Shown piece by piece: positions 14,716 through 52,038 of a DNA stretch of 64,000 nucleotides. Each line of letters begins with the position of its first letter. Position 1 is the first letter of the stretch. The DNA is from Bacteroidales bacterium (GTDB taxonomy: Bacteria > Bacteroidota > Bacteroidia > Bacteroidales > UBA932), in NCBI GenBank assembly GCA_017477465.1, contig JAFUVU010000053.1, positions 1 through 64,000 of the forward strand. The letters run 5' to 3'. The translations under genes were made by a program, and so were the position numbers. The notes under the pieces were generated by a model that did not search any database, was not told the DNA's origin, and saw nothing but the letters and a program-made list of their open reading frames with translations.

Positions 14716-15675
14716 TTACCCGCGTTTGGTGGGCTGATGGGAGAAGCTGCGGCGGGGGCCTTCGGCCTGGAGCCAGTAGTCGTGGTCAAAGGCTTCACCG
14801 GGGAAGAGGTATGGCCCGTCATGGTCTATCTGAAACGCCATGTAGGTGATGGGCAGGCCCATCTCAAGGAACATCTTTTCGTAGAATGTCTGCACCTGAA
14901 CAACAGCATCCGCATCAGTCAGAAGGGGATGTATGTTCCCGAATCCGTAGCCACCATCGGCCGCACCCTGATTAGACGAGTGCCCATTGGGGGACAACAG
15001 GGGTCCCGATGCTTCGGAAGGGGCCCATCCGTCAGGATTGGAGGGGGCGCTAAGCGCAGATTCGGGAACAGACATTCCCTCCTCATAGACATCGGTACTA
15101 AATGCAATCACCTGTAAATCATTCACTTTCGCAACAGCCTGCGTGTATTCGTACAGGTAGCGGGAATCGGTCTTGAGGTGGATTATGCCGCCGGGCCTGA
15201 GGAATTTGCGGTAGCGCTCCAGGAAAAGCGGCGAGCTTAGGCGGCTGTTTTCGGAGCCTCGCAGCTGCGGATCGGAGAAGGTGAGCCAGATTTCGCTCAC
15301 TTCCTCAGGGCCGAAGAACGCCTCTATGAACTCAATGCGCGTGCGCAGGAAGGCCACGTTCGGAAGGGAATTCTCGGTGGCGTATTTGGCACCTTTCCAC
15401 AGCCGCGCGCCTTTAATGTCAATGCCGATATAGTTAATCTCCGGATGCCGGAGCGCCAGGGCAATGGTGTAATCTCCTTTGCCGCAACCAAGTTCCAGCA
15501 CTATGGGATGGTCATTGCCGAACATCTCCCGTCCCCAATTGCCTTTGATTGCATGGCTGCGAAGCCTCAGCTGACTGGAACCGGGCTCTTTATCCAATAT
15601 GGCCGATGCATCCGGCTGCAAAAGGCAGCGGAAAGTCTCGTTCTCTGCAAATTTCTTCAGTTTGCCGTGTCCCAT
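14716..15675 (-). CDS. trmB: tRNA (guanine-N7)-methyltransferase with in-frame inserted element
   Basis: Methylates G46 of tRNA with SAM. The SAM site VLELGCGKGDYTIALA is at about residues 59-74. The TFSDPQLRG segment corresponds to the family's catalytic F-x-DPWPKKRH-like motif, and LRPGGIIHLKTDSRYLYEYT follows. The family is usually 200-260 residues; this one is 319 and lacks the usual Pro-Trp-Pro in the signature. About residues 200-251 are encoded by element C copy 1 and read as a Ser/Pro/Gly-rich loop (SALSAPSNPDGWAPSEASG). After it, the conserved end resumes (VQTFYEKMFLEMGLPITYMAF), so the gene appears intact. The gene ends beside element A copy 3. Confidence 0.88.
   Translation of the reverse strand: MGHGKLKKFAENETFRCLLQPDASAILDKEPGSSQLRLRSHAIKGNWGREMFGNDHPIVLELGCGKGDYTIALALRHPEINYIGIDIKGARLWKGAKYATENSLPNVAFLRTRIEFIEAFFGPEEVSEIWLTFSDPQLRGSENSRLSSPLFLERYRKFLRPGGIIHLKTDSRYLYEYTQAVAKVNDLQVIAFSTDVYEEGMSVPESALSAPSNPDGWAPSEASGPLLSPNGHSSNQGAADGGYGFGNIHPLLTDADAVVQVQTFYEKMFLEMGLPITYMAFQIDHDGPYLFPGEAFDHDYWLQAEGPRRSFSHQPTKRG
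14926..15079. repeat. Element C copy 1, inside trmB
   Basis: The ends GGGATGTATGTTCCCGAATC (14926-14945) and GATTCGGGAACAGACATTCC (from 15059) are complementary apart from one mismatch and one bulged base. The interior shares TTGGGGGACAA-AGGGG, AGGGGCCC and the GAGGGGGCGC-AAGCG-AGATT end with copy 2. It is translated in frame as a loop of TrmB. Confidence 0.85.
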
Positions 15676-15689
15676 GAACTAACTCTAAA

Positions 15690-16100
15690 TCAATCACTTC
15701 CTGTACTAAGCACAGTCTTGCGCGTAACCAAACCCATACCGCGCAGGCCTTCGGGAGCGGAAGGCACAGCCACAGTCAATTCCCAAAGACCGCACTCATA
15801 AGGCTGCACGCCCGAACGGTAAGGCACATATACATCACGCCCGTCCAATGGCATGTACACGCTCTCCCTATACACCGAATCAGACGGCGAAGTCCAGCGC
15901 AGGACAAGTTGCATCTGAACCGGAACGTCCGCCGCATCGATGCGAGTGTAAAGGTCAAAATCGTAAACGGCGGTGCTGTCCTGCATATCCACCGTAAACG
16001 TGTACGGACCGGGGGCCGGGACAAAAACTTCCACGGAAGCGGGCTCCCGGCAAGAAAAAACAGCCAGGAAAACTACCAGAATGGGAAGCAGCCGTTTCAT
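15690..16100 (-). CDS. GldH-like lipoprotein
   Basis: A 136-residue lipoprotein: MKRLLPILVVFLAVFSC, with Cys17 as the lipidation site. The mature part is beta-rich with the LYTRIDAADVPVQMQLVLRWTSPSDSVYRESVYMPL stretch typical of the GldH family. GldH is needed for gliding and type IX secretion-linked motility in Flavobacterium, but homologues are widespread in non-gliding Bacteroidales, where the role is unclear. Gene order (holB, PSP1 gene, gldH) is the order usual in Bacteroidetes, which supports the call. Confidence 0.75.
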   Translation of the reverse strand: MKRLLPILVVFLAVFSCREPASVEVFVPAPGPYTFTVDMQDSTAVYDFDLYTRIDAADVPVQMQLVLRWTSPSDSVYRESVYMPLDGRDVYVPYRSGVQPYECGLWELTVAVPSAPEGLRGMGLVTRKTVLSTGSD

Positions 16101-16105
16101 AAAGA

Positions 16106-17293
16106 CTACTCTTTGGCACCGCCCCTGTCGGCACCGCCCCTGTCGGCACCGCCTTTGCGTCCATGACCCTTCCCGCCCTTGCGGCGCTTTTTGCGCTTTT
16201 CAGGGTCGAAGCGGTTGATGGCGTCGTCACCAACTGCCGACACGAACTCGGGAGCGGCGACAACCTCCTGCCTCAGAGTGGCAGGTTTCTGGCCGCGGCG
16301 GTTCATGGCCTGGACCTCGCGGACCTCATCGGCACTTAGAGGAAATATCTGGGCCAGAGAGCCTTTCTCATAGGAGAAATACAGCTTTTCGGCAAGAATG
16401 TCGGTTTTCACGAGCCACGCCTGGCCGTCCTCGAACTCCAGAGGCTCGGCAACTTTTGGAATGCGCGAATGGGCATCCAGATAGGCCGCCACCTCATAAT
16501 TTAGGCAGCACTTGAGCTTGCCGCACTGCCCTGCCAGCTTCTGCGGATTCAGAGACAGGTCCTGCGTACGTGCGGCCGATGTCGTAATCGACTTGAACTC
16601 AGTGATATAGTTGGCGCAGCAAAGCTCGCGTCCGCATACTCCCAGACCGCCGATGAGACCGGCCTCCTGACGGGCGCCTATCTGCTTCATCTCAACCCTG
16701 ATGTGGAACTCCTCGGCAAAGTCTTTGATTAGCTGGCGGAAATCTACGCGGCCGTCGGCAATGTAGTAGAAGATGGCTTTGGTGCCGTCGCCCTGATATT
16801 CCACATCGCCGATTTTCATTTCCAGGCCGAGGTTGGCGGCCAGCACACGGGCGCGGATCATGGTTTCCTGCTCGCGGGCTATCGCTTCCTGCCAGCGCTG
16901 GATGTCGAAAGGACGGGCCTTGCGGTAAATCTTGCGAAGCTCCTGAGTCTCAGGGTTTACGCCCTTGCATTTCATCTGCCTGCCGACAATGGGCCCCTCG
17001 AGGGTGACTATGCCAAGGTCGTGGCCGGTGGCAGCCTCCACAACTACAAGGTCGCCTGTCTTGATGCTTTGCCCTGAGGCGTTTACGTAAATCCCCTTGC
17101 GGGTATTCTTGAAGCGCACCTCGTAATAGTCGTTGTATTGTTCCTGGCCGATGCCTTTGAGCGTATTATATACCTCCAGCTTGCAGCAGCCCTGACGATA
17201 GCGGATGTCCCTGTCGCCTGTCTGCTCGTCGATTACCACGGTACAGCCGCGGAAGCAATCGAACTGGATGGTTTCGTTGGAGTAGTCAATCAT
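16106..17293 (-). CDS. PSP1 domain protein, RicT-like
   Basis: A 395-residue member of the PSP1/RicT family (YaaT in Bacillus, which works with RicA/RicF in RNA processing). Key signs are the GDLVVVEAATGHDLGIVTLEG segment and the Cys-rich GVCGRELCCANYI plus CGKLKCCLNYE, which supply Fe-S ligands in the Ric complex. The C-terminal tail is Lys/Arg/Gly-rich (RKKRRKGGKGHGRKGG) and ends in three repeats of GADRGGA from short direct DNA repeats. It overlaps the holB stop by 4 bases. Confidence 0.9.
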   Translation of the reverse strand: MIDYSNETIQFDCFRGCTVVIDEQTGDRDIRYRQGCCKLEVYNTLKGIGQEQYNDYYEVRFKNTRKGIYVNASGQSIKTGDLVVVEAATGHDLGIVTLEGPIVGRQMKCKGVNPETQELRKIYRKARPFDIQRWQEAIAREQETMIRARVLAANLGLEMKIGDVEYQGDGTKAIFYYIADGRVDFRQLIKDFAEEFHIRVEMKQIGARQEAGLIGGLGVCGRELCCANYITEFKSITTSAARTQDLSLNPQKLAGQCGKLKCCLNYEVAAYLDAHSRIPKVAEPLEFEDGQAWLVKTDILAEKLYFSYEKGSLAQIFPLSADEVREVQAMNRRGQKPATLRQEVVAAPEFVSAVGDDAINRFDPEKRKKRRKGGKGHGRKGGADRGGADRGGAKE

Positions 17294-18270
17294 AAGAATG
17301 TGTATAATTGATTCACCAGGTCGGTGAAGAGGATTTTCTGGTTTACGTTGCGCTCAATCAGCAAAAGAGCGCGGTCCAAACTTCCCAGCGCCTTGCGCGG
17401 GAAGGTGGGTTTAAGGTTTGCCGCCATTTGCCGATAGTAGGGTTCATCGGCCTCCTGCAGGTGGGCAAGGGACGGCATCTTTTGCAGAAGGAAAATGCGG
17501 CGGAGATCCTCGGAGGCAAGGCGGCAGAAGGCCTTCTGCTGCTCGCGGACTTTGAGATCCGCCACTGCTTCGCCCGTTTCAAGAGCCTTCAGCAAGTCCT
17601 TGGCTACCAGGGCGTCAAGCAAATCGTGGAAGAGGTCCTTAAGCACTACGTTGTCTGCGGCTTCGCGGGCATGGACCGTAGCATCGGCCTCCTCTGAGAG
17701 GGGCTGCACACGTATATGCAGACAGCGGGAGGAAATGGTCAGAAGAACCTTTTCCGGGGCGTGGGTAATCAGCAGGAACAGCGTCTGCCGGGGCGGTTCT
17801 TCCACCATTTTGAGGAGGGCGTTGGCGGCCTGGGCGTTCATCTTTTCCGGCAGGTACAACACCACTGTCCTGTAGCCGCCCTCAACGGCCGACAAGGACA
17901 GCCGCTCCAGGATACTGCGCGCCTCATTCACGGAAATATTGCTTTGCTTCCCTTCTATGCCGATGGCGGCATACAGCTCATTCTCAAAGAAATAGGGGTT
18001 CTCCTGCAGGAGTTGCCTGAAAGAGTTCATGAATTGGAGCGACACCGGCTTGTCACTGCCGGCCACGGGGAATACAAAGTGGATATCGGGATGGATGAGC
18101 TTCTGCACGCGCGGATTGCCGCCGTAAAGCTCCTCCAGGAAATTAAGGACTATGGGGAAGGCGCCTCCGCCATCGTCCTCATGCAGCAGGATGGCATGCG
18201 GAATGCGGCCGCCCTCCACCATCTGGTGAAGAGCATTCACAACTTCCCTATTTCCATAAACTGTCTGCAT
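17290..18270 (-). CDS. holB: DNA polymerase III delta' subunit
   Basis: Clamp-loader subunit. The 326-residue protein has the delta' type AAA+ layout: GGRIPHAILLHEDDGGGAFPI replaces a true Walker A, then VRSILERLSLSA-like sensor region and ANALLKMVEEPPRQTLFLLITH with the SRC motif (LLTISSRCLHIRV). The ATG at 18270 (MQTVYGNREVV) is chosen because it follows the upstream TGA by one base. The alternative start eight codons earlier overlaps that gene. The missing P-loop residues are normal for delta'. Confidence 0.9.
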   Translation of the reverse strand: MQTVYGNREVVNALHQMVEGGRIPHAILLHEDDGGGAFPIVLNFLEELYGGNPRVQKLIHPDIHFVFPVAGSDKPVSLQFMNSFRQLLQENPYFFENELYAAIGIEGKQSNISVNEARSILERLSLSAVEGGYRTVVLYLPEKMNAQAANALLKMVEEPPRQTLFLLITHAPEKVLLTISSRCLHIRVQPLSEEADATVHAREAADNVVLKDLFHDLLDALVAKDLLKALETGEAVADLKVREQQKAFCRLASEDLRRIFLLQKMPSLAHLQEADEPYYRQMAANLKPTFPRKALGSLDRALLLIERNVNQKILFTDLVNQLYTFL

Positions 18271-18271
18271 G

Positions 18272-19252
18272 TCAATTGTTTCTGTCGGCCACAAAACGGG
18301 CGAGCTTCACAAGATACGATTTTTCTTCGGATTCAGGAAGGTTTTTCAGGAAGGAGATTGCCATTTGCACGTAATAATCCATCTTCCACATCGCCTGCTC
18401 GACCCCGTGATGCTCCATAACGAAGGCGCGCACCTCGTCGGCAAGGGCGGGGTTATCGGCAATGCCTTTCACTTTTTCGCGGATAGAACGGCTTTCCTTT
18501 GCCGACACACTCTTAAGCGCACACAGTAGCGGAAGGGTAATTTTCTGCTCCAGGAGGTCTATGCCCACAGGCTTGCCGATTGCGTCGGAAGGGGATGTGT
18601 AGTCGAAGATATCGTCCTTTATCTGGAAAGCCAGGCCCAAACTGCGGGCATAATCTCCCACTGCAGCAATGCTGTCCTTGGAAGCGCCCACCGAAATGGC
18701 GGCAGACATGGCGGCAGCCTCAAAAAGCGACGCCGTCTTTCCGTATATGATGCGCCGATAGTCGTCCTCGTCAGTCTTGGCAGAGGAGGCCCTGTCCATC
18801 TGAAGCAGTTCGCCTTCTGTCAAATTCTTGATTGTAAAAGCATATATGCGAAGGACCCGTTCCGGTTCACGCTCGGCATTCAGCACAAGCCTGAGACACT
18901 TCGCCAGCCAGTAATCCCCAATTAAAACTGCAGCCTGAGGATTGATCATGGAAGCCACTGTAGGCATTCCCCTGCGTTGAGTCGCTCCATCCACCACATC
19001 GTCGTGCAGAAGGGTGGCATTGTGCAGAAGCTCGGCGGCTGCGGCGTAGCGGTAGGTGCTGTCGCAGACAGTTCCGCATGCTCCGGCCGCAAGCAGCGCC
19101 AAGGAGGGCCTCAGGAGCTTGCCGGGATGCTGCAGCAACTTGCGGTTGGTCATGTCCAGAAGGTGCACGTTGCTCTCCAGGGCGACGTCCATGAGCACCT
19201 CCACTTCCTTCAAATGCGGCTTTAGAAAGGCTTGTATCTCTTTGAATTCCAT
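18272..19252 (-). CDS. Polyprenyl (octaprenyl-type) diphosphate synthase
   Basis: A trans-isoprenyl diphosphate synthase that makes the side chain of menaquinone. The first Asp-rich motif is LLHDDVVDG (DDxxD at residues 84-88) and the second is IKDDIFDYTS (about residues 213-217). The 326-residue length and the KLLRPSLALLAAGA motif fit IspB-like long-chain enzymes. Chain length cannot be read with certainty. It lies between holB and the LOG-family gene with 1-base gaps, so these are one transcription unit. Confidence 0.92.
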   Translation of the reverse strand: MEFKEIQAFLKPHLKEVEVLMDVALESNVHLLDMTNRKLLQHPGKLLRPSLALLAAGACGTVCDSTYRYAAAAELLHNATLLHDDVVDGATQRRGMPTVASMINPQAAVLIGDYWLAKCLRLVLNAEREPERVLRIYAFTIKNLTEGELLQMDRASSAKTDEDDYRRIIYGKTASLFEAAAMSAAISVGASKDSIAAVGDYARSLGLAFQIKDDIFDYTSPSDAIGKPVGIDLLEQKITLPLLCALKSVSAKESRSIREKVKGIADNPALADEVRAFVMEHHGVEQAMWKMDYYVQMAISFLKNLPESEEKSYLVKLARFVADRNN

Positions 19253-19783
19253 TTACTTGAAATAAGAAATCAGTTCTTCCGGGGTTGTGGGGAACTTAAT
19301 CAGGTCACGGTCTTTGGGCTCCAGCATGCCAGTGGCCACAAAATGGTCCAGCAGTTCTATGAGCGGGTTGTAAAAGCCGTCGAAATTAAGGGCATACACA
19401 TCGCCCTTATATCGGCCCAATTTGCGGAGGGTGTGAGTTTCGGCAAGTTCGTCCAGGGTGCCGATTCCACCGGGCAGAGCAATGGCGGCACAGGTGTCTT
19501 CACGCATTTTTTCCTTGCGCTCCGACATGGTTTCCGTCCATACCACTCTGCTTACGCCCGGATTCTCCAGACCTTTCATGAAGGACGGAAGGACGGCCAC
19601 ATGGCAGCCGCCGCATTTGATGGACTCGTCGGTAATGGCACCCATGGTGCCCACAGCACCGCCGCCCGAGACAATGGCATAGCCCAAAGAATGCAGGGCG
19701 CGGGTTACTTCCCGCGCCGCTGCATTGAATTTAGGGTCTATTTTCTTGCTCGCAGAGCAATAGATTACAACCTTTTTCTCCAT
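19253..19783 (-). CDS. LOG family (TIGR00730-type) nucleotide-processing protein
   Basis: A 176-residue Rossmann-fold protein with the hallmark PGGIGTLDELAE motif (about residues 104-115) and SGGGAVGTMGAITD upstream. Family members hydrolyse nucleoside 5'-monophosphates to base and ribose phosphate (cytokinin-activating in plants); in bacteria they are probable AMP/GMP nucleosidases. It overlaps the stop of the beta-barrel gene by one base. Confidence 0.9.
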   Translation of the reverse strand: MEKKVVIYCSASKKIDPKFNAAAREVTRALHSLGYAIVSGGGAVGTMGAITDESIKCGGCHVAVLPSFMKGLENPGVSRVVWTETMSERKEKMREDTCAAIALPGGIGTLDELAETHTLRKLGRYKGDVYALNFDGFYNPLIELLDHFVATGMLEPKDRDLIKFPTTPEELISYFK

Positions 19784-20445
19784 TAGAAGAACAGGCCGAG
19801 GGTAACCTTGATGCCCTGATAGTTCTTGAGGTTTTTCAAATCTACAGATGCGGCCGTGGTTGCAGGATCTACATTCAGTTTTTCTCCATTGTAGAGATTA
19901 CCAAGATTCATGAACCACTGGACGGAAATCTGAACATGGTCCAGAAGTTCTACGCCGCCGCCTACGCCGAAGCCGTATTCCAATTTGTTCTTGGCGTCAG
20001 TGAGCTGTTTGCTGACAGAATCAACAGTATATTTACCATCCGTATCGGCAAAATTTTCGGTGCCGGTAACGGCATAACCGATGAAGGGTTCGAACACTGC
20101 GAAGGGGCGGAAAGCCAGCAGATCTACACCTGCCTGGAGGCCCAGAGACAGCTCTACGAAACCGGTCTTGGTCTGGAAGTCGCCAACAGTCGATTCACCG
20201 AGCTCGTTGAGAGTTGCGCCTTTTACCTGATACTGAAGGGCGGGCTGAAGGGCGAAGAAATTGCCGATTTCTGCCTTATAAGCAATACCTGCATGGTAGA
20301 GGCTCACGTTCTTAAGCTCGCCTTTGAGATTGCTCATATCGGCGCTGGAGTTGGAGGAGGTGAAACCACCGATGATACCAATCTGTGCGTTAGCAACTGT
20401 TGCCGTGGCGAAGGCCAGGGCGAGAATAGTCAAAATCTTTTTCAT
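19783..20445 (-). CDS. Outer-membrane beta-barrel protein
   Basis: Signal peptide MKKILTILALAFATATVANAQ is followed by an eight-strand-like barrel: alternating hydrophobic segments such as FFALQPALQYQV, GFVELSLGLQAGVDLL and FGVGGGVELLDHVQISVQWFMNLG, ending VTLGLFF with the terminal Phe used by BAM. The size (220 residues) fits the PF13568-like porin-family proteins common in Bacteroidetes. Ligand is unknown. It lies six bases after the thioredoxin stop. Confidence 0.87.
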   Translation of the reverse strand: MKKILTILALAFATATVANAQIGIIGGFTSSNSSADMSNLKGELKNVSLYHAGIAYKAEIGNFFALQPALQYQVKGATLNELGESTVGDFQTKTGFVELSLGLQAGVDLLAFRPFAVFEPFIGYAVTGTENFADTDGKYTVDSVSKQLTDAKNKLEYGFGVGGGVELLDHVQISVQWFMNLGNLYNGEKLNVDPATTAASVDLKNLKNYQGIKVTLGLFF

Positions 20446-20451
20446 AACTGT

Positions 20452-20766
20452 TTATAGATTAGCGTTAATCTTTTCAATGAGAGTGGGTTTAGGCATTGCG
20501 CCTACTGTTTTGTCCACAACTTTTCCGTCTTTGAAGAAGAGCAGGGTGGGGATGCTCATGATGCGGAACTGGGCGGCGATTTCGTCCGCGTCGTCCACGT
20601 TTACTTTTACCACTTCGATTTTGTCGGCCATTTCTTCGGCCACTTCGTCGAGGATTGGGGAGAGCATGCGGCAGGGACCGCACCATGTGGCCCAGAAGTC
20701 CACAACTACGAGTTTATCGCTGGTGATGAGCTGTTCAAAATTAGTGTTCGTTGCTACTTTAGCCAT
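20452..20766 (-). CDS. trxA: Thioredoxin
   Basis: A 104-residue cytosolic disulphide reductase with the active site W28-C29-G30-P31-C32. It has the cis-Pro loop IMSIPTLLFFKDGK and typical VVDFWATWCGPCRML. Length is normal and no signal peptide is present, so it is the housekeeping form rather than an envelope reductase. It appears to be the first gene of the unit running down to gldH; the 130 bases upstream are AT-rich and hold only a terminator. Confidence 0.97.
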   Translation of the reverse strand: MAKVATNTNFEQLITSDKLVVVDFWATWCGPCRMLSPILDEVAEEMADKIEVVKVNVDDADEIAAQFRIMSIPTLLFFKDGKVVDKTVGAMPKPTLIEKINANL

Positions 20767-20837
20767 GATTCAATAGATTTTTATCAGTTTACAAAAGTAA
20801 TTAAAATCCATATTTTTAACAATAGCTTATTTTTAAA

Positions 20838-20876
20838 AAGCACAATACCCCTGAGGCATAGGCTGTCCAGGGGTAT
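20838..20876 (-). terminator. Rho-independent terminator after the beta-helix gene
   Basis: ATACCCCTG (20848-20856) pairs with CAGGGGTAT (20868-20876). Read on the minus strand, the stem is followed by TGTGCTTTTTAAAAA. It ends transcription of the gene stopping at 20897. Confidence 0.7.
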
Positions 20877-20896
20877 CGCGTAAGTAACTGAAGAAA

Positions 20897-22444
20897 CTAC
20901 CGAGGCATCTGAGCGCCGTAATTCTCCACTTTGCCGAAGAGGTCTTTGGCTTTCTCCCAAGGATACTTGTTGCAGTACATGGAAGGACGTACAATCTCGC
21001 TTCCTTGCTGATTGAGACCGAAGGCGCGGTTGAACTGGTTAGCGGCGGAATTGGCGTTGTAGCTCTGTGAAGACATTATCTTGAGGGAGAGGAAGCCTTC
21101 CAGATAGGGCTGGTCGATAGCTTCGACGAAGTCATATTCGCTTTCGGGCAGTTCCATGTTGCCTTCATATTTGGGGCCGATCTGCTCCGCTTCTTCAATG
21201 CGTGCAGCAGGAACCGAAATGGTGGCTGCGCCCATGGAGGCGAGTTCAAGGTCGCGCTTGTTGGCGAAGAAGTAGTTGTCGTACAGGTTGGAAATCTTGG
21301 CTTTTTCCATGGCCTGGGTGGTCTCGTAGTACACTCTTTCGACGCCGCAGTTGGAGTTGCAGCCGAAGATGTTGTTATGTACGTCGATGGTGCGGATACC
21401 GTTCATGAAGCGGAAGCCCTGGCCCATGTCTTCGAAAGCCTTGGTGCGGGTCCATGTGAACAGGACGGTGTTGTGGTGGAAGTCGAGGGAGACTTTCTCG
21501 ATGTCGGCATCCCTGGTTGAACCTCTTACCTGGCAGGCGGAGTAGCGGCAGGCGACGAAGATATTGTTGCAGATTTCAATGTGGCCGATGCCCATCATGG
21601 CGGAGATGCCATAGTCGCGGCAGTTCACGAAAATGCAGTTGGCGATCTTCACATTGCCTTCCACATCAAGGTGCAGGCCATATTCGTCACCGTTTGCATA
21701 ACCCACCTTGGGGCAGTTGGGCATAGCGTCAGGCTCTATGAAACGGCCGGTGAGAACGCCCTCGTTGGGGGTGCCGGTAATCTCGTCATTCACATTTGCG
21801 GCGCAGTAGAGGTTGTTTTCGCCGAAGTCGAACACAAGGCCGTCAATCACAAGAGTGCCGACAGGGCCGTTGTAGCCATAAGGCCTTCTGGCGTTGATAT
21901 TCATCAGAGGAGTGATGAATTTCTGCTCCACGGGCTGGAGTTTGGTCACATACTTGATGATGTCCCTTTCGCTGAAATCGGGGGCATAGCCGCCGTAGAT
22001 GCTGAAGAATTTGCCACGCTCTGTCTGGGCATTGCCGAAGCGGCCGCTTTCGATGTAGCCGCGGTCCATGTTGCCGAGGTAGTTACCTTCCGCCACGAGG
22101 ATGACATCGCCCTCTTCGGCCAGGTCGATGGCTTTCTGAAGGTCTCTCAGAGGCTTTTCAGGAGTGAGCCCGTCAGAGCGGGCCGATCCGGTGCTGGCGC
22201 TCACATACAAGGTTCTTCCTTTAGCTGCAGGAGTAGCGGCAGAAGAAACATTGGAGAGAATAGCGGTAGGATTGGAAGATGTAGAAGTTGCAGTAGCTGT
22301 CTGGCCGCCGGTGGCTTGATTTGCCACATTGCCTATGGCCTTGGTTGCTTTGTCTTTCAGACTTTTTAAGTTGAATTGAGCGGAAGCTATGCTTGCGCTG
22401 GCCAGCAGCATCACGGCTGCCAATGCAATTCGGTTAAGTTTCAT
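20897..22444 (-). CDS. Secreted right-handed parallel beta-helix protein
   Basis: The start at 22444 (MKLNRIALAAVMLLASASIASAQ) gives a clean signal peptide; 515 residues in all. A Thr/Ser/Ala-rich linker follows. Next comes GRTLYVSASTGSARSDGLTPEKPLRDLQKAIDLAEEGDVILVAEGNY, the DUF1565-type opening of pectate-lyase-like beta-helices. Repeating coils with HIEICNNIFVACRYSACQV and TIDVHNNIFGCNSNCGV follow. No catalytic lyase triad is evident, so it may be a carbohydrate-binding or surface-structure protein. It stands alone with its own promoter and terminator. Confidence 0.82.
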   Translation of the reverse strand: MKLNRIALAAVMLLASASIASAQFNLKSLKDKATKAIGNVANQATGGQTATATSTSSNPTAILSNVSSAATPAAKGRTLYVSASTGSARSDGLTPEKPLRDLQKAIDLAEEGDVILVAEGNYLGNMDRGYIESGRFGNAQTERGKFFSIYGGYAPDFSERDIIKYVTKLQPVEQKFITPLMNINARRPYGYNGPVGTLVIDGLVFDFGENNLYCAANVNDEITGTPNEGVLTGRFIEPDAMPNCPKVGYANGDEYGLHLDVEGNVKIANCIFVNCRDYGISAMMGIGHIEICNNIFVACRYSACQVRGSTRDADIEKVSLDFHHNTVLFTWTRTKAFEDMGQGFRFMNGIRTIDVHNNIFGCNSNCGVERVYYETTQAMEKAKISNLYDNYFFANKRDLELASMGAATISVPAARIEEAEQIGPKYEGNMELPESEYDFVEAIDQPYLEGFLSLKIMSSQSYNANSAANQFNRAFGLNQQGSEIVRPSMYCNKYPWEKAKDLFGKVENYGAQMPR

Positions 22445-22474
22445 ATGCAGTGTTATTTTAACATTTTGTTTGCG

Positions 22475-22482
22475 CAAATATA
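22475..22482 (-). promoter_or_regulatory. -7 box of the beta-helix gene
   Basis: TATATTTG on the minus strand, 30 bases before the ATG at 22444. Confidence 0.5.
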
Positions 22483-22487
22483 ACGAA

Positions 22488-22512
22488 CCCCCTGCTGAAA
22501 AACAACAAGGGG
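22488..22512 (-). terminator. Hairpin terminator after the PII-like gene
   Basis: CCCCCTGCTG (22488-22497) pairs with CAACAAGGGG (22503-22512), allowing G-U pairs, with an A5 loop (U5 on the minus strand). It lies 30 bases after the stop of the gene ending at 22542. The U-run after the stem is weak. Confidence 0.5.
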
Positions 22513-22541
22513 TAACTAGTTAAATTTGCTCATTTTTACTA

Positions 22542-22835
22542 TCAGAGAGCCTCTTCCACAGGTAAAACGTATGCCCTGAGACCTAGTTTTTGGTTGGCGG
22601 TATCAGTTTCGCGCAGAGCTTTCATTATCTCCGACGCAAGCTTGTCTTCCACTACCGTAAACAGTGCATGGTTCTGCGTAGGCCAGGCATGAGAGCCAAG
22701 ATGAGGCTCCCCGTCCACGCTTCCACGGCCGCCGACATCCTGCCAAACAGTATAACCGCGCTGGCCCAAATTTTCCAAAAGCTCCACAATCTCCTGATTG
22801 TACGCCTGGTTGTATGCAATAAATATCGCTTTCAT
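22542..22835 (-). CDS. PG0541-like PII-family partner of RND efflux
   Basis: A 97-residue protein with a ferredoxin-like/PII fold: MKAIFIAYNQAYNQEIVELLENLGQRGYTVWQDVGGRG opens with the first beta-alpha unit. The WPTQNHALFTVVEDKLASEIMKAL segment is the second. It matches the transporter-associated PG0541-type family found directly after RND pump operons in Bacteroidales. Here it follows the pump gene, separated by element C copy 2. A regulatory role on the pump is inferred from context only. Confidence 0.82.
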   Translation of the reverse strand: MKAIFIAYNQAYNQEIVELLENLGQRGYTVWQDVGGRGSVDGEPHLGSHAWPTQNHALFTVVEDKLASEIMKALRETDTANQKLGLRAYVLPVEEAL

Positions 22836-22870
22836 AATCTATGTGTTCTATGACAGATGATTATATCTAT

Positions 22871-23081
22871 GACAGATGACTGTGCGTTCTCAAATCGTCG
22901 CTTCGCGACCCCTCCCATCACGGCGTCCCTTTTCGGGCTTCGCCCTCTGAGAGATTTACTGTGGGCCCCTCCCGAATAATCGGGAGAATTGTTTATCCCC
23001 CTATTGTCCCCCAAGGGACACTTGCCCTATCGGGGTGTGGCCGAGGGTGGCCACAGATTTGAGAACGCACAGTCATCTGTC
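22871..23081. repeat. Element C copy 2 (211 bp, long terminal inverted repeat)
   Basis: A 26-base perfect inverted repeat bounds it: GACAGATGACTGTGCGTTCT.. at 22871-22896 and its complement at 23056-23081. Internal parts include GTCGCTTCGCGACCCCTCCC, GGGCCCCTCCC, CTATTGTCCCCCAAGGGACA and GTGGCCGAGGGTGGCCACAG. The right end overlaps the last base of the pump gene's stop codon. No gene lies inside. Confidence 0.9.
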
Positions 23082-42382: not shown

Positions 42383-42385
42383 GTT

Positions 42386-42475: not shown

Positions 42476-42476
42476 C

Positions 42477-42585
42477 CCTCGGCACGCAACTAGCTGATTC
42501 CCAGCAACTTCCTGAAATCAAGTGTGACTTTTTGCCGCACTTGATTTTTATAATTCGCTGAGTGATCGGCGTTTACGTGTCGAGG
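42477..42585. repeat. Element A copy 6
   Basis: The core CTGAAATCAAGTGTG begins at 42512 and pairs with CGCACTTGATTT (one mismatch). The outer ends are CCTCGGCACGCAAC (42477-42490) and GTTTACGTGTCGAGG (to 42585). It overlaps the 3' end and stop codon of the MATE gene and faces the end of malQ. Confidence 0.88.
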
Positions 42586-44531: not shown

Positions 44532-44552
44532 TTTGCTGCTACGTAACGCCGG

Positions 44553-45494: not shown

Positions 45495-45531
45495 ACAGTT
45501 CGCGAAGGTAGTGAAAATTCCACCAAGTTGC

Positions 45532-45640
45532 AAGCGACACGCAAACTCCTCAGCCTCAGCAAGTTCCTGAAATCAAGTGCGGCAAAAAGTCACACTTGAT
45601 TTCAACAAGTCGGTGATAGTCAGCGACTTGCGTGTCGAGG
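45532..45640. repeat. Element A copy 8
   Basis: Outer stem GCGACACGCAA (from 45534) pairs with TTGCGTGTCGAGG (to 45640). The inner stem CTGAAATCAAGTGCG (45567-45581) pairs with CACACTTGATTTCA (45591-45604) with one mismatch. It lies between the zupT-like stop and the rsgA start, both on the minus strand. Confidence 0.88.
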
Positions 45641-45641
45641 T

Positions 45642-46403
45642 TTAGCCCATTACTACGTCGAGGACCATCATTAGGGAGAAGCCGATGGCGAAGCCTATCG
45701 TGGCAAGGTTGGAGTGGGGGCCGTCGGAGGCCTCGGGGACCAGTTCTTCCACCACGACATAGAGCATGGCGCCGGCGGCGAAGGCAAGAAGGTAAGGCAT
45801 GATGGGCGTAACCACCGAAGCCAGAAGCAGAACAAGGGCGCCGCCGATGGGTTCGACTATGCCGCTGAGGGCACCAACGGCAAAGGCCCGGGTGCGCGTA
45901 TTACCCGCAGCGCGAAGAGGCATGGAGATAATGGCACCCTCCGGCACATTCTGGATGGCTATACCTAGGGACAGGGCAATCGCACCCGCGACCGACATGC
46001 CGACATCGGAAGAAAGCGCACCGGCAATGGCAACGCCCACGGCCATCCCTTCAGGCAGATTATGGATAGTGACGGCGAGGGCCAGCTTGGCAGTCTTGGA
46101 CAAATGGCTGCGCGGGCCTTCTTCCCCGCCCACAGGGTGCAGGTGCGGCGTAATGTAGTCGATAAGAAGCAGAAAGGCAAAGCCAAGCAGCAGGCCGATG
46201 GTGACCGGCCACACCCCTCCGGGCATCTCCATAGCCGGAATGAGCAGCGACCAAACCGAAGCCGCCACCATGACGCCGGAAGCGAAACCCAGCAGAATCT
46301 TGGTAACCCACAGCGGCATATCCTTCCGCATGAAAAATACGAAGGCCGATCCGAGGGCAGTGCCGGCGAAGGGAATAAGCAGTGCTATAAGTACTGGAGA
46401 CAT
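45642..46403 (-). CDS. zupT: ZIP-family metal transporter
   Basis: A 253-residue, eight-helix transporter of the ZupT/GufA group, taking up Zn2+ and other divalent ions. The metal site is in helix 4, HNLPEGMAVGVAIA, and helix 5, IAIQNVPEGAIISMPL; both are intact. A His-containing loop (HLHPVGGEEGPRSHLS) separates helices 3 and 4. The symbol rests on family resemblance. It lies 6 bases after the MFS gene in the same direction. Confidence 0.9.
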   Translation of the reverse strand: MSPVLIALLIPFAGTALGSAFVFFMRKDMPLWVTKILLGFASGVMVAASVWSLLIPAMEMPGGVWPVTIGLLLGFAFLLLIDYITPHLHPVGGEEGPRSHLSKTAKLALAVTIHNLPEGMAVGVAIAGALSSDVGMSVAGAIALSLGIAIQNVPEGAIISMPLRAAGNTRTRAFAVGALSGIVEPIGGALVLLLASVVTPIMPYLLAFAAGAMLYVVVEELVPEASDGPHSNLATIGFAIGFSLMMVLDVVMG

Positions 46404-46409
46404 AGGCGT

Positions 46410-47762
46410 TTATCTTTTCAAATACTTCCAGCCGATTACAGGCAGCGAGAATGCAAGGACGCATGCAATGATCCAGAAAACGGAAACCGGGCGGAAGTTA
46501 TAGACATTGTCGGCCAGATTGCCGTCGATGAGGAAGCCGCTTATCATGCTTTGCAAGCCTGCGGCGATGTAACTTGAAATGCCGACGATGCCAAGCGCGG
46601 CGCCGGTGGCCTTGCGAGGAACGAAGTCAAGGGCCATGAGGCCGGCGACGATGCAGAAGACGACGCTGAACGAAGCGCTGAACACGGCCACAAACAGCAT
46701 GTTAAGTCCAAATCCGCCGCCAAGGAGCAGGAATCCGGCCAAAGATGCTACGGCCAGCACGCCTGCTATCACGACAGGCCGCACGCGATTGCCACGGAAG
46801 ACCACATCGGACAGCCAGCCCGCAGCCAGATTGCCGGCGACGCCGAAGATTTCGGCCAGGCCGATCACCTGGGCGGCCCTTTCCAGTGAAAAGTCTTTCT
46901 GCTTCTGGAGGAACAGTACGCCCCAGTCGCTCACAGCGTGCTGAGTGATATACAAAAACGCGGTAGAAATGGCTATAACCCAGATTCCGGGATGCTTGAA
47001 GACCCATTTCTGCAGTTCCTGGGTGGGCTTTTTGTCCAGCTCTTTCATCGGCTCGCCGGAGAGTTCCTGGACCGATGGAAGGCCGCGGCTTTCGGGAGTA
47101 TCGGCAATGAAAATGAGCGATACAACAAGGCCGATTACCCCGGCAACGGCGGCAGCCAGGAAGCCCCATTGCCAACCTGCAGCAGCGACGATGAAGCCGG
47201 TGAGAATCATGGAGACGGACTTTCCAAGCTGCGGAGTGGAGCTGAAGATGCTGTACATTGTACCGCGCCTACTCAGCGGGAACCATCTGGACAGGCTGAT
47301 GGTGCCGGGCGGCGAGCCCATGGACTGCGCCCAGCCGTTGACGCCCCAAAGGATGGCGAAGGTCCCCATCATCAGCATCGAGCCGAAGCCAAGCGGCCCC
47401 TGGAGCAGCCCCATAATGCCAAGGATAAGATTCACGACGGCGGAAACCGCAATGCCCACTGCCATGAAGCGGCGGATGTTGCAGTAATCGGCAATTATGC
47501 CGTTGCAGAATTTGCCGATAGCATATACGAAATAAAAAGCGGAGCCGATGATGCCCAGCTGCCCGGCGCTGAGGATGTTTCCGTCGATTAGCGGCTGCTT
47601 CACCACGCCCAGCGTCATGCGGCAGACGTAGTAGAGCGTATAGACGACCGTCACACCCCAGAAAGTCCTGGAACGCAGGCGTTTATACGTTGCATCCACC
47701 TCCCCGGGCGGCACTTTCACCGCCGACGGCTTGCTGATTCGGAAGTAGGAGAAGAGGGACAT
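46410..47762 (-). CDS. MFS transporter of the organophosphate:phosphate antiporter type
   Basis: A 450-residue twelve-helix permease of the GlpT/UhpT/UhpC group: FWGVTVVYTLYYVCRMTLGVVKQPLI after the N-terminal basic stretch, GWAQSMGSPPGTISLSRWFPLSRRGTMYSIFSS in the family's central signature, and PVSVFWIIACVLAFSLPVIGWKYLKR at the end. The Arg of helix 1 that binds phosphate appears in YYVCRMTLG. Likely cargo is glycerol-3-phosphate or a hexose phosphate, or it may be a UhpC-like sensor. It starts one base from the HAD phosphatase stop. Confidence 0.9.
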   Translation of the reverse strand: MSLFSYFRISKPSAVKVPPGEVDATYKRLRSRTFWGVTVVYTLYYVCRMTLGVVKQPLIDGNILSAGQLGIIGSAFYFVYAIGKFCNGIIADYCNIRRFMAVGIAVSAVVNLILGIMGLLQGPLGFGSMLMMGTFAILWGVNGWAQSMGSPPGTISLSRWFPLSRRGTMYSIFSSTPQLGKSVSMILTGFIVAAAGWQWGFLAAAVAGVIGLVVSLIFIADTPESRGLPSVQELSGEPMKELDKKPTQELQKWVFKHPGIWVIAISTAFLYITQHAVSDWGVLFLQKQKDFSLERAAQVIGLAEIFGVAGNLAAGWLSDVVFRGNRVRPVVIAGVLAVASLAGFLLLGGGFGLNMLFVAVFSASFSVVFCIVAGLMALDFVPRKATGAALGIVGISSYIAAGLQSMISGFLIDGNLADNVYNFRPVSVFWIIACVLAFSLPVIGWKYLKR

Positions 47763-47763
47763 G

Positions 47764-48369
47764 TCAGCAGTCGGCTAATAGAATGCCAAGGTCGTTGCCC
47801 TGGATGAAGAGCCTGGCCTGCATGCCGACGGCTCTTGCTCCCTCTACGTTGGCGGGGCTGTCGTCGATGAAAAGCAGCTCCTCAGGCGCAGCGCCGATGC
47901 CGCTTATCACGGCGTTGAAATACTCCGCGGACGGCTTCATAAGCTTCATGTCTGCCGATATGAATTCACCCTTGAAGGCCTTTCCGAGGCCGTTTTCCGC
48001 CAACACCTGGCGGCAGCGGAGCATGGAGATGGGATTATTATTCGATGCCAGATAGAGGGGATAGCGTTTAGCCAAATCTTTGATTACCTCCGCTTTGCCG
48101 GGGGCCATACCAGTGAGGAAGGCCGCCATGCAGCGGTCCACGTCGGAGGGTTGGCTGCCGGGACGGGATTCGGCCAGGACCATTTGACGGAACAAGTCGG
48201 CGCTTATTGTGCCTGCTTCCAGATCCCCGTAGATGCCTTTCTGGTGGCTGGGATCCAGAAGCTGGGTTATCTTGTCGTAGCCCAGTATGCTTTGAAATGC
48301 GTTTATGCAGCGCCCCATATCCAGATCTACGAGGACGCCGCCTATATCGAATATAATTGCTTTAGTCAT
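47764..48369 (-). CDS. HAD-family phosphatase (YihX-like)
   Basis: A 201-residue HAD subfamily IA enzyme: IIFDIGGVLVDLD is motif I, but the second catalytic Asp of the usual DxD is replaced by Gly-Gly (DIGG), as in the YihX glucose-1-phosphate phosphatase group. Motif II is LASNNNPI, Lys motif region KLMKPSAEYF, motif IV FIDDSPANVEGA. Hence a sugar phosphatase is more likely than a phosphoglycolate enzyme. It precedes the organophosphate carrier, which suggests linked sugar-phosphate use. Confidence 0.88.
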   Translation of the reverse strand: MTKAIIFDIGGVLVDLDMGRCINAFQSILGYDKITQLLDPSHQKGIYGDLEAGTISADLFRQMVLAESRPGSQPSDVDRCMAAFLTGMAPGKAEVIKDLAKRYPLYLASNNNPISMLRCRQVLAENGLGKAFKGEFISADMKLMKPSAEYFNAVISGIGAAPEELLFIDDSPANVEGARAVGMQARLFIQGNDLGILLADC

Positions 48370-48377
48370 ATTACCGA

Positions 48378-48385
48378 CAAAGGTA
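48378..48385 (-). promoter_or_regulatory. -7 box of the HAD phosphatase gene (near-leaderless)
   Basis: TACCTTTG on the minus strand, ending 8 bases before the ATG at 48369. The rest of the gap to 48493 is AT-rich and must also hold the promoter of the divergent YitT gene; TTAACTTTA near 48464-48472 is a weak candidate. Confidence 0.6.
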
Positions 48386-48493
48386 CAAAAAAATGCACAA
48401 CACCCTGCATTATTTGAAGAATGTTAAAATGATTAAAATTAGTAAGTGTTCTGTAAAAAATTATTAACTTTATAGGCGCTAAAACTAACAAAC

Positions 48494-49420
48494 ATGAAAG
48501 ATATCCTGAAAATCCTTGGAACTTGGAAATTTTGGAAGGAACTGTTCATAATGACTGCAGGCATGGCCATCGCTGCCGCCGCCGTCTATTACTTCCTCAT
48601 GCCGTCCAAACTGGTTGTAGGGTCCATCACCGGTTTGTCAATCGTCATTTCCAACCTCTTCATGGCCGCCGGCATTAACCTTAAAGTATCGGTAGTCATC
48701 ACCGTCATCAACGCAATATTGCTGGTAATGGCATGGATACTTATCGGCCATGAATTCGGTGCAAAAACCATATACACGGCACTCATCCTGGGTCCTCTGG
48801 TGGAAATGTGGGAGAAAATCCTCCCCATAGAAAAGCTCCTGGAGCCGGGGCAGACTTCCCTCATGGGCGACATCTGGTTCGACCTTCTGTGCTTCGTGCT
48901 CATATTAAGCGCCTCGCAGACAATACTATTCCACATTAACGCCTCAACCGGCGGGCTGGATATCCTTGCAAAGATTCTCAATAAGTACCTCCACTTTGAA
49001 ATCGGCACTTCCGTAAGCATCGCCGGTGCCGTCATCTGCTGCACCGCTTTCGCCATCAATCCTTTCCGTCTGGTCGTTATCGGCCTTATCGGCACTTGGA
49101 TCAACGGCCTGGCGCTGGATTATTTCACCGCCGGCCTCAACCGCAGAAAGAGAGTCTGCATCATATCTTCCCAGTACGAGCGAATCCGCAAATACATTAT
49201 CGAAGACCTGCAGAGGGGCTGTTCCCTGTACAATGTCACAGGCGGCTACAATGGCCATCAAAACGTTGAAATCCAGGCACTTCTCACCCAGAACGAATTT
49301 GCAAGCCTGATGAGCTACCTGAAAGCCAACGACATCCACGGCTTCATCACCGCCGGCAACGTAAGCGAAATCTACGGCGACTGGAACCAGAAAAAACGCA
49401 AAAAGAAGAAAATTGCCTAA
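48494..49420 (+). CDS. YitT family membrane protein
   Basis: A 308-residue protein with about six hydrophobic helices in the first 210 residues (MAIAAAAVYYFLMPSKLVVGSITGLSIVISNLF is the YitT signature opening) and a C-terminal DUF2179 domain (about 215-300) with VTGGYNGHQNVEIQALLTQNEFASLMSYLKAND. Function of the family is unknown; transport is inferred. The Lys-rich end KKRKKKKIA is typical. It is monocistronic with a hairpin-rich 3' region. Confidence 0.9.
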   Translation: MKDILKILGTWKFWKELFIMTAGMAIAAAAVYYFLMPSKLVVGSITGLSIVISNLFMAAGINLKVSVVITVINAILLVMAWILIGHEFGAKTIYTALILGPLVEMWEKILPIEKLLEPGQTSLMGDIWFDLLCFVLILSASQTILFHINASTGGLDILAKILNKYLHFEIGTSVSIAGAVICCTAFAINPFRLVVIGLIGTWINGLALDYFTAGLNRRKRVCIISSQYERIRKYIIEDLQRGCSLYNVTGGYNGHQNVEIQALLTQNEFASLMSYLKANDIHGFITAGNVSEIYGDWNQKKRKKKKIA

Positions 49421-49426
49421 AAATTT

Positions 49427-49543
49427 ACCGCGCCAAAAAGTTTGGCACGGTATTCGATATAAGAGGTATCAGACATAAATATTGATACCTTACTATAACA
49501 CCCCGCAGCCAATTGTGAAATTCGCGTGCGGGGTTCTTCTTTT
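49427..49543. terminator. Three consecutive hairpins after the YitT gene, last one terminator-like
   Basis: ACCGCGCCAAA/TTTGGCACGGT (49427-49451, one mismatch), AGGTATCA/TGATACCT (49464-49490) and ACCCCGC/GCGGGGT (49500-49534), followed by TTCTTCTTTT on the plus strand. The last is a plausible intrinsic terminator of YitT; transcripts of the convergent dipeptidase gene would also meet it. The role of the first two is unknown. Confidence 0.65.
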
Positions 49544-49544
49544 C

Positions 49545-50906
49545 TTACCAGTACTTGTAGAACAGCGCTATGCTTTCCATTCCTGCAAAGAGCTGGCGCA
49601 GCAGATAGCTTTCGTTTGGCGAATGGATGGTATCCCTCTCGAGGCCGAAGCCCATCAGAAGAGGGTCGATGCCGAGGATGCGCTGCATATCGGCAAGGAT
49701 TGCGATGGAACCGCCGCCGCGGGCCGGAACAGGCTCTGTACCATATACTTCCGCCATTGCTTTGGATGCGGCCTGATACGCCGGGGAGCTGATGGGGATA
49801 AGGAAGCCGTCGCCGCCCTCGCAAGGAGTCACTTCAATTTTGATATACGGCGGCGCAATCCGCTCCAGATGCTCCTTGAACAGCTTTGTAATCTTTGCCG
49901 ATGTCTGGCCGGGCACCAGCCTCATGGACACCTTGGCGTGAGCCGTCGATGGCAGCACAGTCTTGGCGCCGACGCCCGTGTAACCGCCCCAGATGCCGCA
50001 TACGTCAAGACAAGGACGGATGGCAGTGCGCTCCAGCGTAGTGTATCCCTTTTCGCCCTTTACCTCATTGATATCCAGGAATTTCTTGTATTCATCCATA
50101 TCGAACGGCGCCTTGTTCAGAAGGGCTCTGTCTTCTGCGCTGAGTTCGATTACGTCGTCATAGAAGCCGGGGATTGCAACGCGTCCGTCTTCGTCATGCA
50201 GCGAAGCGATAAGAGCGCAAAGCTCGTTGATGGGATTGGCCACGGCACCGCCGTAATGCCCTGAATGCAAATCCTTGTTGGGGCCCGTGACCTTCACTTC
50301 CAGATAGGCCAGGCCGCGCATGCCGCAGTTGATGGACGGAACCTTGTCGGAAATCATTGTGGTGTCGGAAACAAGGATGACATCGGCCTTTAGAAGGTCT
50401 TTATGCTCTTCGACCCATTCCGGGAGAGAAGGGCTGCCGATTTCTTCCTCACCTTCGAAGATGAACTTTACATTGTGCTTCAACTGCCCGCTGCGAAGGA
50501 GATACTCGAACGCCTTGAGGTGCATGAAAAGCTGGCCTTTGTCGTCATTGGCGCCGCGGCAGTAAATTGCCTCTTCCCCGCTTATGGGATCCTTGCCGAT
50601 TACAGGCTCGAACGGGTCGGTACGCCATTTTTCCAGCGGCTCCGGCGGCTGAACATCGTAGTGGCCATATACCAGCACTGTCTTTTGCGCGCCTATATTC
50701 TTACTGCCGAAAACAACCGGATTGCCCTTGGTTTCAAAGACATCGGCCTTGTCGGCGCCGGCTTCTTTCAGAAGTTCCGTAAGACGGGTTGCGCAGCGGT
50801 ACATGTCACTCTTGTGCTCCGGCTTGGCGCTGATTGAAGGGATGCGAAGAAGGGAAAACAGCTCTTCGAAGAAACGGTCTTTGTTATCGTTGATATAACT
50901 CTTCAT
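49545..50906 (-). CDS. M20 family dipeptidase
   Basis: A 453-residue zinc metallopeptidase of the M20 (PepV/carnosinase-like CN-type) family. Metal and catalytic residues: VLVYGHYDVQPPEP (His and catalytic Asp), AIYCRGANDDKGQLFMHLKA (bridging Asp), FIFEGEEEIGSPSL (catalytic Glu pair). A dimerisation domain is inserted in the middle. The start at 50906 (MKSYINDNKDRFFEELF) is the family start; the longer frame lies within atpG. It follows atpG by 13 bases and so probably shares the ATP synthase transcript. Confidence 0.95.
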   Translation of the reverse strand: MKSYINDNKDRFFEELFSLLRIPSISAKPEHKSDMYRCATRLTELLKEAGADKADVFETKGNPVVFGSKNIGAQKTVLVYGHYDVQPPEPLEKWRTDPFEPVIGKDPISGEEAIYCRGANDDKGQLFMHLKAFEYLLRSGQLKHNVKFIFEGEEEIGSPSLPEWVEEHKDLLKADVILVSDTTMISDKVPSINCGMRGLAYLEVKVTGPNKDLHSGHYGGAVANPINELCALIASLHDEDGRVAIPGFYDDVIELSAEDRALLNKAPFDMDEYKKFLDINEVKGEKGYTTLERTAIRPCLDVCGIWGGYTGVGAKTVLPSTAHAKVSMRLVPGQTSAKITKLFKEHLERIAPPYIKIEVTPCEGGDGFLIPISSPAYQAASKAMAEVYGTEPVPARGGGSIAILADMQRILGIDPLLMGFGLERDTIHSPNESYLLRQLFAGMESIALFYKYW

Positions 50907-50919
50907 AAGCGTTGATTGT

Positions 50920-51912
50920 TTATTGCTGCATCTGTCCGCCGGCGAGATCCAGGATTTCGGAGGTGATTTTCTGCTGTCGGCCCTTGTTGTATTGCAGGGT
51001 GAGCTCTTCAAGGAGATTCTCACCGTTGTCAGTAGCGGTCTGCATGGCCACGGTGCGGGCGGCATGCTCAGCAGCAGCACTGTCCAAAATCGCAGAATAA
51101 AGCTTGAGCTTCAGCGTCTTAGGCAACAGCAAAGCCAACAGCTCCTTACGAGACGGCTCAATGATAGGAGGCACATCCGTCCCGCTCCACATAACAGTAT
51201 CATCAGCACCGAGAGATACGTTCGACTCGCTCCGCTCGCTCAGTATGACAGGGTCTGAAGCCTCGCGCGTCCCTTCTGTCATTCCGAGCGAAGTCGAGGA
51301 ATCTCCCAGCAGCCACTCCACAACAGGCACTTGCTTGGCTGTTGAGCAGAAGTGATTGTAAACCAGAAGCGCTCCGGCGATACGGCCGGCCTCAAAATCG
51401 GCCGAGAGCTGCTCAACCAAAGCAGCGGCCGGAGCGTAGGAGGGATGCTCGGCCAGGTCTGTGAAATCGCTTGGAGAGAGGAAGCCGTCGCGGCGCATAG
51501 CATCGGCCATTTTCCTGCCGATTGAATACACGACATCGCCCTCTCGCCGGACAGACCGCACCTTGGCAATGGCAGCAGCATTGAACCCGCCGCAAAGGGA
51601 GGAGTTGGACGCGATGGCAACGATGGCAAGCGGCCTGGAAGATGCCCGGTCGGGGCCGGGCATGACAGTGTCATTGCCGACTTGATCGGCAATCTTAGAT
51701 GCCCGATCGGAGCCGGGCATGACGGGGGCAGTGCCGGGCGAGACCAGGGAGGCGAGAATCTCTTGCAGCTGCTGCTCGTACGGGCGCATTGACTCTATGG
51801 CCTTCTGGGCTTTGCGCAGTTTGGCCGACGACACCAGCTTCATTGCCGATGTAATCTTAAGCGTACTCCTGACAGAAGCAATACGTCCCTTTATTTCCTT
51901 CAGTGTTGGCAT
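50920..51912 (-). CDS. atpG: ATP synthase gamma subunit with two repeat-derived insertions
   Basis: Central rotor stalk of F1. From the ATG at 51912 (MPTLKEIKGRIASVRSTLKITSAMKLVSSAKLRKAQ) it has 330 residues; the family usually has 285-295. The N- and C-terminal helices, which form the coiled coil in the alpha3beta3 core, are intact, the latter ending LLEELTLQYNKGRQQKITSEILDLAGGQ. Two insertions fall in the globular part and both are element B: about residues 61-92 (VMPGSDRASKIADQVGNDTV) and about 200-240 (SSTSLGMTEGTREASDPVIL). Neither breaks the frame. Last of the eight atp genes. Confidence 0.95.
   Translation of the reverse strand: MPTLKEIKGRIASVRSTLKITSAMKLVSSAKLRKAQKAIESMRPYEQQLQEILASLVSPGTAPVMPGSDRASKIADQVGNDTVMPGPDRASSRPLAIVAIASNSSLCGGFNAAAIAKVRSVRREGDVVYSIGRKMADAMRRDGFLSPSDFTDLAEHPSYAPAAALVEQLSADFEAGRIAGALLVYNHFCSTAKQVPVVEWLLGDSSTSLGMTEGTREASDPVILSERSESNVSLGADDTVMWSGTDVPPIIEPSRKELLALLLPKTLKLKLYSAILDSAAAEHAARTVAMQTATDNGENLLEELTLQYNKGRQQKITSEILDLAGGQMQQ
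51221..51305. repeat. Element B (variant) inside atpG, distal insertion
   Basis: TTCGACTCGCTCCGCTCGCT followed by CAGTATGACA, and later CTGTCATTCCGAGCGAAG continuing TCGAGGAATC. These are halves of the CTCGGCTTCGCTCGGAATGA type repeat also seen in atpB. Translated in frame. Confidence 0.8.
51641..51723. repeat. Element B triplet inside atpG, proximal insertion
   Basis: Three palindromes in a row: GATGCCCGGTCGGGGCCGGG.. (51641-51665), a GTCATTGCCGAC-TTGATCGGCAAT unit and GATGCCCGATCGGAGCCGGG.. ending 51723. All in frame. Confidence 0.88.
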
Positions 51913-51926
51913 AACAAAAAGTGGAA

Positions 51927-52038
51927 GGAATGTCGTTGTTGAAAATCTGTGGCCACCCTCGGCCACATAAGAGGGAGGGGCCCGCCGGCTTGCCGGTGGG
52001 AGGGGTCGCGAAGCGACGATTTTCAATAACGATATTCC
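51927..52038. repeat. Element C copy 3, between atpA and atpG
   Basis: The ends GGAATGTCGTTGTTGAAAAT.. (51927-51947) and their complement (52018-52038) match at 19 of 21 positions. The interior has TGTGGCCACCCTCGGCCACA, AGGGAGGGGCCC and GGGAGGGGTCGCGAAGCGAC in common with copy 2, in the opposite orientation. It sits just upstream of the atpG start inside the atp transcript. Confidence 0.88.

Follow-up and report, generated by a model that had tools for sequence, protein, structure and literature searches.

In excerpts of the papers concerned (PMC3767692, PMC10969869), Rickettsia palindromic elements (RPEs) are described as palindromic sequences of about 100-150 bp, present in many copies, which lie in open reading frames (ORFs) with the frame left intact and which often fill the same site in orthologs. 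RPE-4 and RPE-6 were assigned to the CGTC repeats, for which, according to the portion consulted of a 2013 survey (PMC3733652), no dedicated transposase was known, and perfect inverted repeats in translated genes are reported in an excerpt on the mitochondria of Nematomorpha (PMC6649704).

Here we analysed element C, a repeat with three copies in the window (the whole stretch of DNA under study, 64,000 nt from a Bacteroidales genome). How palindromic elements spread inside bacterial proteins is, to our knowledge, unsettled; about 200 copies of element C, with empty sites, flips and covariation in one genus, make insertion, joint arm evolution and core inversion testable, and the family offers a natural case of inverted-repeat arms co-evolving within protein-coding genes. 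On our best reading, element C would be a palindromic element that is compatible with protein coding and dispersed within one uncultured genus of gut Bacteroidales, working like the RPEs, and we file it as a variant of the protein-coding palindromic elements with non-constant ends and a covarying pseudoknot. In the literature searched, consulted partly in excerpt, no description of this family was recognised.

Element C shares with the RPEs a palindromic structure of about 100-150 bp, dispersed over many sites (197 distinct stems), and inserts that keep the ORF frame (36 of 63 in phase, see below). It occurs in another phylum and, judged from published descriptions of the RPEs, may also differ from them in its ends, which vary per locus and covary, in its covarying pseudoknot and in its core, which flips. 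Like the REP and the CGTC- and GTAG-tagged repeats with RAYT, it is a small palindrome in genomes most of which encode RAYT-like (Y1) proteins; unlike the RAYT-mobilised REPs it flanks none of the 20 RAYT-like loci examined, and its CGTC sits within the H1 stem and not in an unpaired tag. It resembles MITEs in being short and dispersed with inverted terminal repeats. These are not constant (139 arm clusters in 239 stems); the constant ends that would have refuted the sequence-only reading were therefore not seen. Neither a parent transposon nor a regular target duplication was shown. The coding palindromes of Nematomorpha mitochondria are likewise inverted repeats inside genes, but they form no dispersed family with a common core and their arms encode conserved protein regions.

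Copies in the window

All three copies reported by the sequence-only reading are present and their ends pair; its placement of the first in trmB is also confirmed. Precisely, copy 1 (14924..15080, G-rich strand on +) lies in frame within an ORF of 319 aa on the - strand (14716..15675), named TrmB by profile search, which stays open across it; 20 of the 22 bases of its H3-side arm (14924..14945, +) pair with the H1-side arm (15059..15080, +). Copy 2 (22871..23081, G-rich strand on -) is a long form adjoining the end of an AcrB-family gene, inverted relative to copies 1 and 3, with 26 of 26 bases pairing between its H1-side arm (22871..22896, -) and its H3-side arm (23056..23081, -). Copy 3 (51926..52039, G-rich strand on +) lies between atpA and atpG, and its H3-side arm (51926..51947, +) pairs at 20 of 22 bases with its H1-side arm (52018..52039, +).

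Folded as single-stranded DNA, the G-rich strands of copies 1, 2 and 3 gave z values of -4.6, -9.4 and -6.1, respectively, each better than 200 of 200 shuffles. No Rfam family matched the window above the gathering threshold; the single match, to CRISPR-DR57 at copy 2, was at chance level (E=2.2). Along the outer edge of this copy (window 22840-22890), CTATGACAGATGA stands twice in direct repeat, and it recurs in inverted form at the opposite end.

Collection and distribution of the copies

Loci were collected via core patterns, one scan needing an exact 33-base pattern; the core conservation is therefore partly ascertained, and the copies from that scan make the ygiQ and other samples non-random. 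We considered as candidate sites all the GGGCCCCTCCC matches with at most one mismatch and enough room in the collected loci (n=266), and we called an enclosing stem at a score of at least 12.

In the window's genome, exact GGGCCCCTCCC matches occur in 15 places; 16 copies have pairing arms, counting window copy 1, and 2 further partial copies lie near C58:12501 and C2:3317. Among the 61 genomes searched, element C was found in 19 of 37 of the same genus and in none of 24 from other genera. The exact 33-base core pattern, with one genome per species, returned at least 117 stretches; among the matches listed, 79 of 80 titles are Bacteroidales or Bacteroidia and 1 is Lachnospiraceae, and many of these listed matches come from ruminant guts. 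Viral carriage was rejected, no viral contig containing this one exact pattern.

Placement in and between genes

Profile searches named AtpA and AtpG for the products flanking copy 3, and KsgA, TruA and YgiQ for ORFs that contain other copies in the window's genome. Further genes are putatively serA, serC, alaS, lptG, yggS and miaB, names assigned from their protein sequences. By their predicted frames, copies sit between genes or in frame inside genes (trmB, ksgA, truA, ygiQ). An open frame of at least 170 codons surrounds 119 of 193 non-redundant copies (62 forward, 41 reversed, 16 unclear), an upper figure because long frames also arise by chance. The gene linkers were mostly found by demanding both anchors in one frame, so the relation between the flanking frames is the less biased test: they are in phase in 36 of the 63 testable copies, against 21 expected (p=1.3e-4), and 29 of the 36 in-phase copies are stop-free inside.

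The YgiQ linker is represented by 34 distinct sequences among the collected loci: 16 have no insert, 15 of them being exactly 36 bases long, 16 hold element C or a relative (11 recognised by pattern and 5 by eye) and 2 hold other inserts. In the ksgA linker of three genomes (L185 in G061, L187 in G019, L188 in G005), other short palindromes stand where the window's genome has element C, so that this linker seems to be a hotspot shared by several families of palindromes. Two inserts, in trmB of G061 (L216) and truA of G000 (L039), are apparently nested or broken: after half of a first element comes a second, complete one, and both share a frame.

Pairing and variability of the arms

An enclosing stem was found at 239 of the 266 candidate sites and was absent in 27. 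The median score was 23.3 with own arms and 7.4 with arms swapped between copies, a control that may contain orthologous duplicates (95th percentile 10.15, maximum 28.6). Merging of double hits left 197 distinct copies. The complementarity of the two ends within each copy, claimed from three copies in the sequence-only reading, is therefore general and above the control; in 106 representatives, 88% of arm positions are complementary, compared with 30% when permuted.

The further claim that the termini are unrelated between copies stands for the most part, the 239 stems falling into 139 arm clusters with no constant terminal sequence across copies. It fails close to the core: in the first set, the arm end at the core is ACC or ATC in 50 of 79, and within these 50 A occupies the following two positions in 49 and 38 arms, respectively. 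Farther from the core, what the ACC/ATC-ending arms share is no more than a weak pattern (purine-rich, GTAT, TTC).

The idea that the two arms are duplicates of a single palindrome was rejected, with internal dyads of 3.40 compared with 3.15 in shuffled arms (sd of the mean 0.06), a weak excess, and no lone palindrome of this kind in 931 kb (rough script). We also set aside an inverted repeat of 85 aligned positions at L350, probably a fold-back produced in assembly, given its position at the end of a contig. There (L350:1-400) the long inverted repeat of coding region runs around the element; palindromes like this one may break MAG contigs.

Divergence of the arms and orientation of the core

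We compared arms between copies whose cores were at least 0.95 identical. With similar flanks, arm identity had a median of 0.90 (range 0.67-1.00, n=10 pairs); with unrelated flanks the median was 0.67 (n=117 pairs), near the shared consensus, and shuffled arms gave a mean of 0.49 and a 95th percentile of 0.625. Two YgiQ copies (L366 and L275) have cores 98% and arms 67% identical. L138 and L139 share near-identical cores, including an idiosyncratic variable hairpin, yet have unrelated arms.

At orthologous loci, counted in 12 of 29 flank-similar pairs, 324 positions were compared, and of the differences among them 28 are compensated and 20 are not; the 28 is an upper figure, because L381/L118 partly reflects a register shift and two pairs are maybe not orthologous. 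As read from these alignments, the arms at shared sites diverge jointly.

The core also occurs in both orientations within related arms. In YgiQ it is forward in G005 and G061 and reversed in G062, the arms being 1-3 bases apart. In a second gene it is forward at L308, L326 and L355 and reversed at L483 and L518, and the inner arm ACCCTCTGAAACC is common to L326 and L483. Between serC and serA, the cores of L337 and L385 have opposite orientations within arms related by eye.

The explanation towards which we lean, with restrained confidence, is that of a palindromic element in which pairing maintains the closing stem, template switching re-matches the arms and flips the core, and the G-rich strand is partly constrained. 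The closing stem would be preserved via its pairing rather than its sequence. During replication, template switching between the inverted arms would cause one arm to be copied from the other, would sometimes invert the enclosed core and would now and then lengthen the stem into the flank. Such switching would account for ends that match each other but are specific to the locus, for the joint divergence of the arms, for the flips and for stems that occasionally reach into the flank. Excerpts of earlier work describe template switching between inverted repeats as homogenising arms and inverting spacers (PMC8604942), and as able to keep or create paired stems (PMC8794818). We infer the process from aligned copies, no event having been directly observed, and the 20 uncompensated differences fit a single mutation followed by compensation equally well. 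The copied or native flank in the arms of some loci (see below) also speaks against this explanation. For near-identical cores with unrelated arms, as in L138 and L139, slow joint drift is insufficient, and either core exchange or new arms at insertion is possible.

Folding of the G-rich strand

In the consensus of 17 copies, the short form reads on the G-rich strand: arm, CTGTGGCCACCCTCGGCCACATAAGAGGGAGGGGCCC, hairpin 2, GGGAGGGGTCGCGAAGCGACGGTTT, arm. The H3 stem is GTGGCC/GGCCAC and the H1 stem GTCGC/GCGAC, hairpin 2 differs among copies, and long forms, such as window copy 2, have additional hairpins before H3. The H3 loop CCCTC can pair with a GAGGG that follows shortly downstream, giving an H-type pseudoknot. 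This pairing was found in all the 140 copies that could be parsed (57 of 197 were not); the variable positions are TC/GA in 131 of them and AT/AT, GT/AC, AC/GT or CC/GG in nine, making five variants overall, and the best of 2000 permutations reached 0.943. Two-sided changes were seen in 26 of 40 pairs of the 17-copy alignment. The predicted fold of the G-rich strand thus comprises a closing stem (the arms), the pseudoknot, a variable hairpin and a last hairpin, with compensatory changes in the fold. The sequence-only reading had proposed a structured RNA with a covarying stem; the covariation is borne out by these pairs, while the folded molecule may be RNA or single-stranded DNA.

With one representative per arm cluster, G-T mismatches on the G-rich strand outnumbered the opposite kind by 117 to 47 (p=4.5e-8), in counts to which locally extended stems add noise. 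The lean was the same whether copies run forward in a gene (56:29), run in reverse (32:13) or lie outside long frames (59:19), and it therefore seems to be the G-rich strand of the element itself, and not host mRNA, on which pairing is maintained. The bias points to an added constraint on that strand, or to a strand-biased mutation giving the same result. Template switching predicts neither the strand asymmetry nor the pseudoknot; both point to the G-rich strand being under some constraint in its folded form, perhaps in a single-stranded mobility intermediate.

The same observations, that is the mismatch bias in both gene orientations and between genes, the covarying pseudoknot and the single-sided differences between close orthologs, would also fit a functional molecule, RNA or single-stranded DNA, in which ordinary selection for pairing, tolerant of G-U, lets the stem drift, gene conversion evening out the cores and template switching playing no part. 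We consider this unlikely; the patchy presence among species, the insertion in either orientation inside unrelated genes and the core flips would be odd for an RNA serving the host.

Element-free sites and origin of the arms

Sites that are filled in some species lack the element in others. Between serA and serC, eight genomes have a short junction with neither arm. For atpA and atpG, ten loci were compared: five have TA or TAA before ATG, three were not resolved, G208 holds an element and G028 another repeat. Six genomes lack the arms between lptG and alaS, G375 among them having a different short palindrome, and the arms are also absent from the element-free counterparts of L331 (one genome), L290 (three), L330 (two, one by eye) and L356 (seven). 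With neither arm in the element-free species examined at seven loci, the arms do not in general stem from flank copying or from a palindromic target, and the proposal in the sequence-only reading that insertion either copies its flank in inverted form or needs a palindromic target is not supported as a general rule.

Four other loci are partial or ambiguous exceptions in this comparison. At the serC-serA copies L337 and L385, the outer 10-12 bp of the stem look like inverted native sequence, the conserved end of serC pairing with its inverted counterpart next to serA, and the inner ~27 bp are not native. At L285 the flank recurs inverted and decayed; G062 has the 3' arm of L306, which was not retained as flank copying, a deletion between short direct repeats fitting equally; and L322 has native codons similar to one arm. 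In addition, about 7 outer bases are native at L284. As for target duplications, ATGAG is found on both sides at L285 and L331, not systematically.

These partial matches bear on the proposal that every insertion produces its own new arms: only the core plus a few bases would move, and fold-back copying at the target would build the stem, partly from inverted flank. The resemblance of the serC-serA outer bases to the inverted native serC end, the decayed copy and repeated ATGAG at L285, and the unrelated arms around identical or near-identical cores at unrelated loci would all be accommodated, but the inner serC-serA stem and both arms at the seven loci are absent from the element-free sites examined, and no template for them was found; we regard the proposal as doubtful. 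On one version of it, which we judge improbable, the ends would not belong to the element: what is transmitted would be mainly the folded core, each insertion would build a new closing stem of 20-40 bp by fold-back copying, partly of the flank, and the machinery would recognise end pairing on the G-rich strand and not sequence.

That the core inserts into palindromes already present is very improbable: core-less palindromes do occur at orthologous sites in truA (G019) and trmB (G005 and G033), but the palindrome in G005 could also be what a deletion left of a filled site, the element-free serA-serC, atpA-atpG and most lptG-alaS sites examined have no palindrome (the one in G375 being different and short), and no lone arm-like palindrome was met in the 931 kb scanned with a rough script.

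Candidate enzymes and other hairpin repeats

We looked for an inserting enzyme among reverse transcriptase and RAYT candidates and did not find one. A reverse transcriptase was rejected as the agent, a PF00078 match being absent in 9 of the 14 element-bearing genomes of the genus that were tested. RAYT-like (Y1) proteins were found in 12 of 14 bearing genomes of the genus and in 4 of 9 non-bearing genomes (p=0.066); with this association and no physical link at the 20 loci, where the one match had 1 mismatch and was at chance level, RAYT was also rejected.

The RAYT-like (Y1) proteins at L452-L471 are divergent and about 300 aa long, and several adjoin hairpin repeats of their own, distinct from element C. 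A second hairpin family occurs in the same genome as the window at L022-L025 (G000 C37:20601, C21:29049, C14:63381 and C11:42354). It has an H1-like GTCGCTTCGCGAC and largely constant ends, CTGCTTCA...TGAAGCAG, and its outermost stem bases change in matched pairs.
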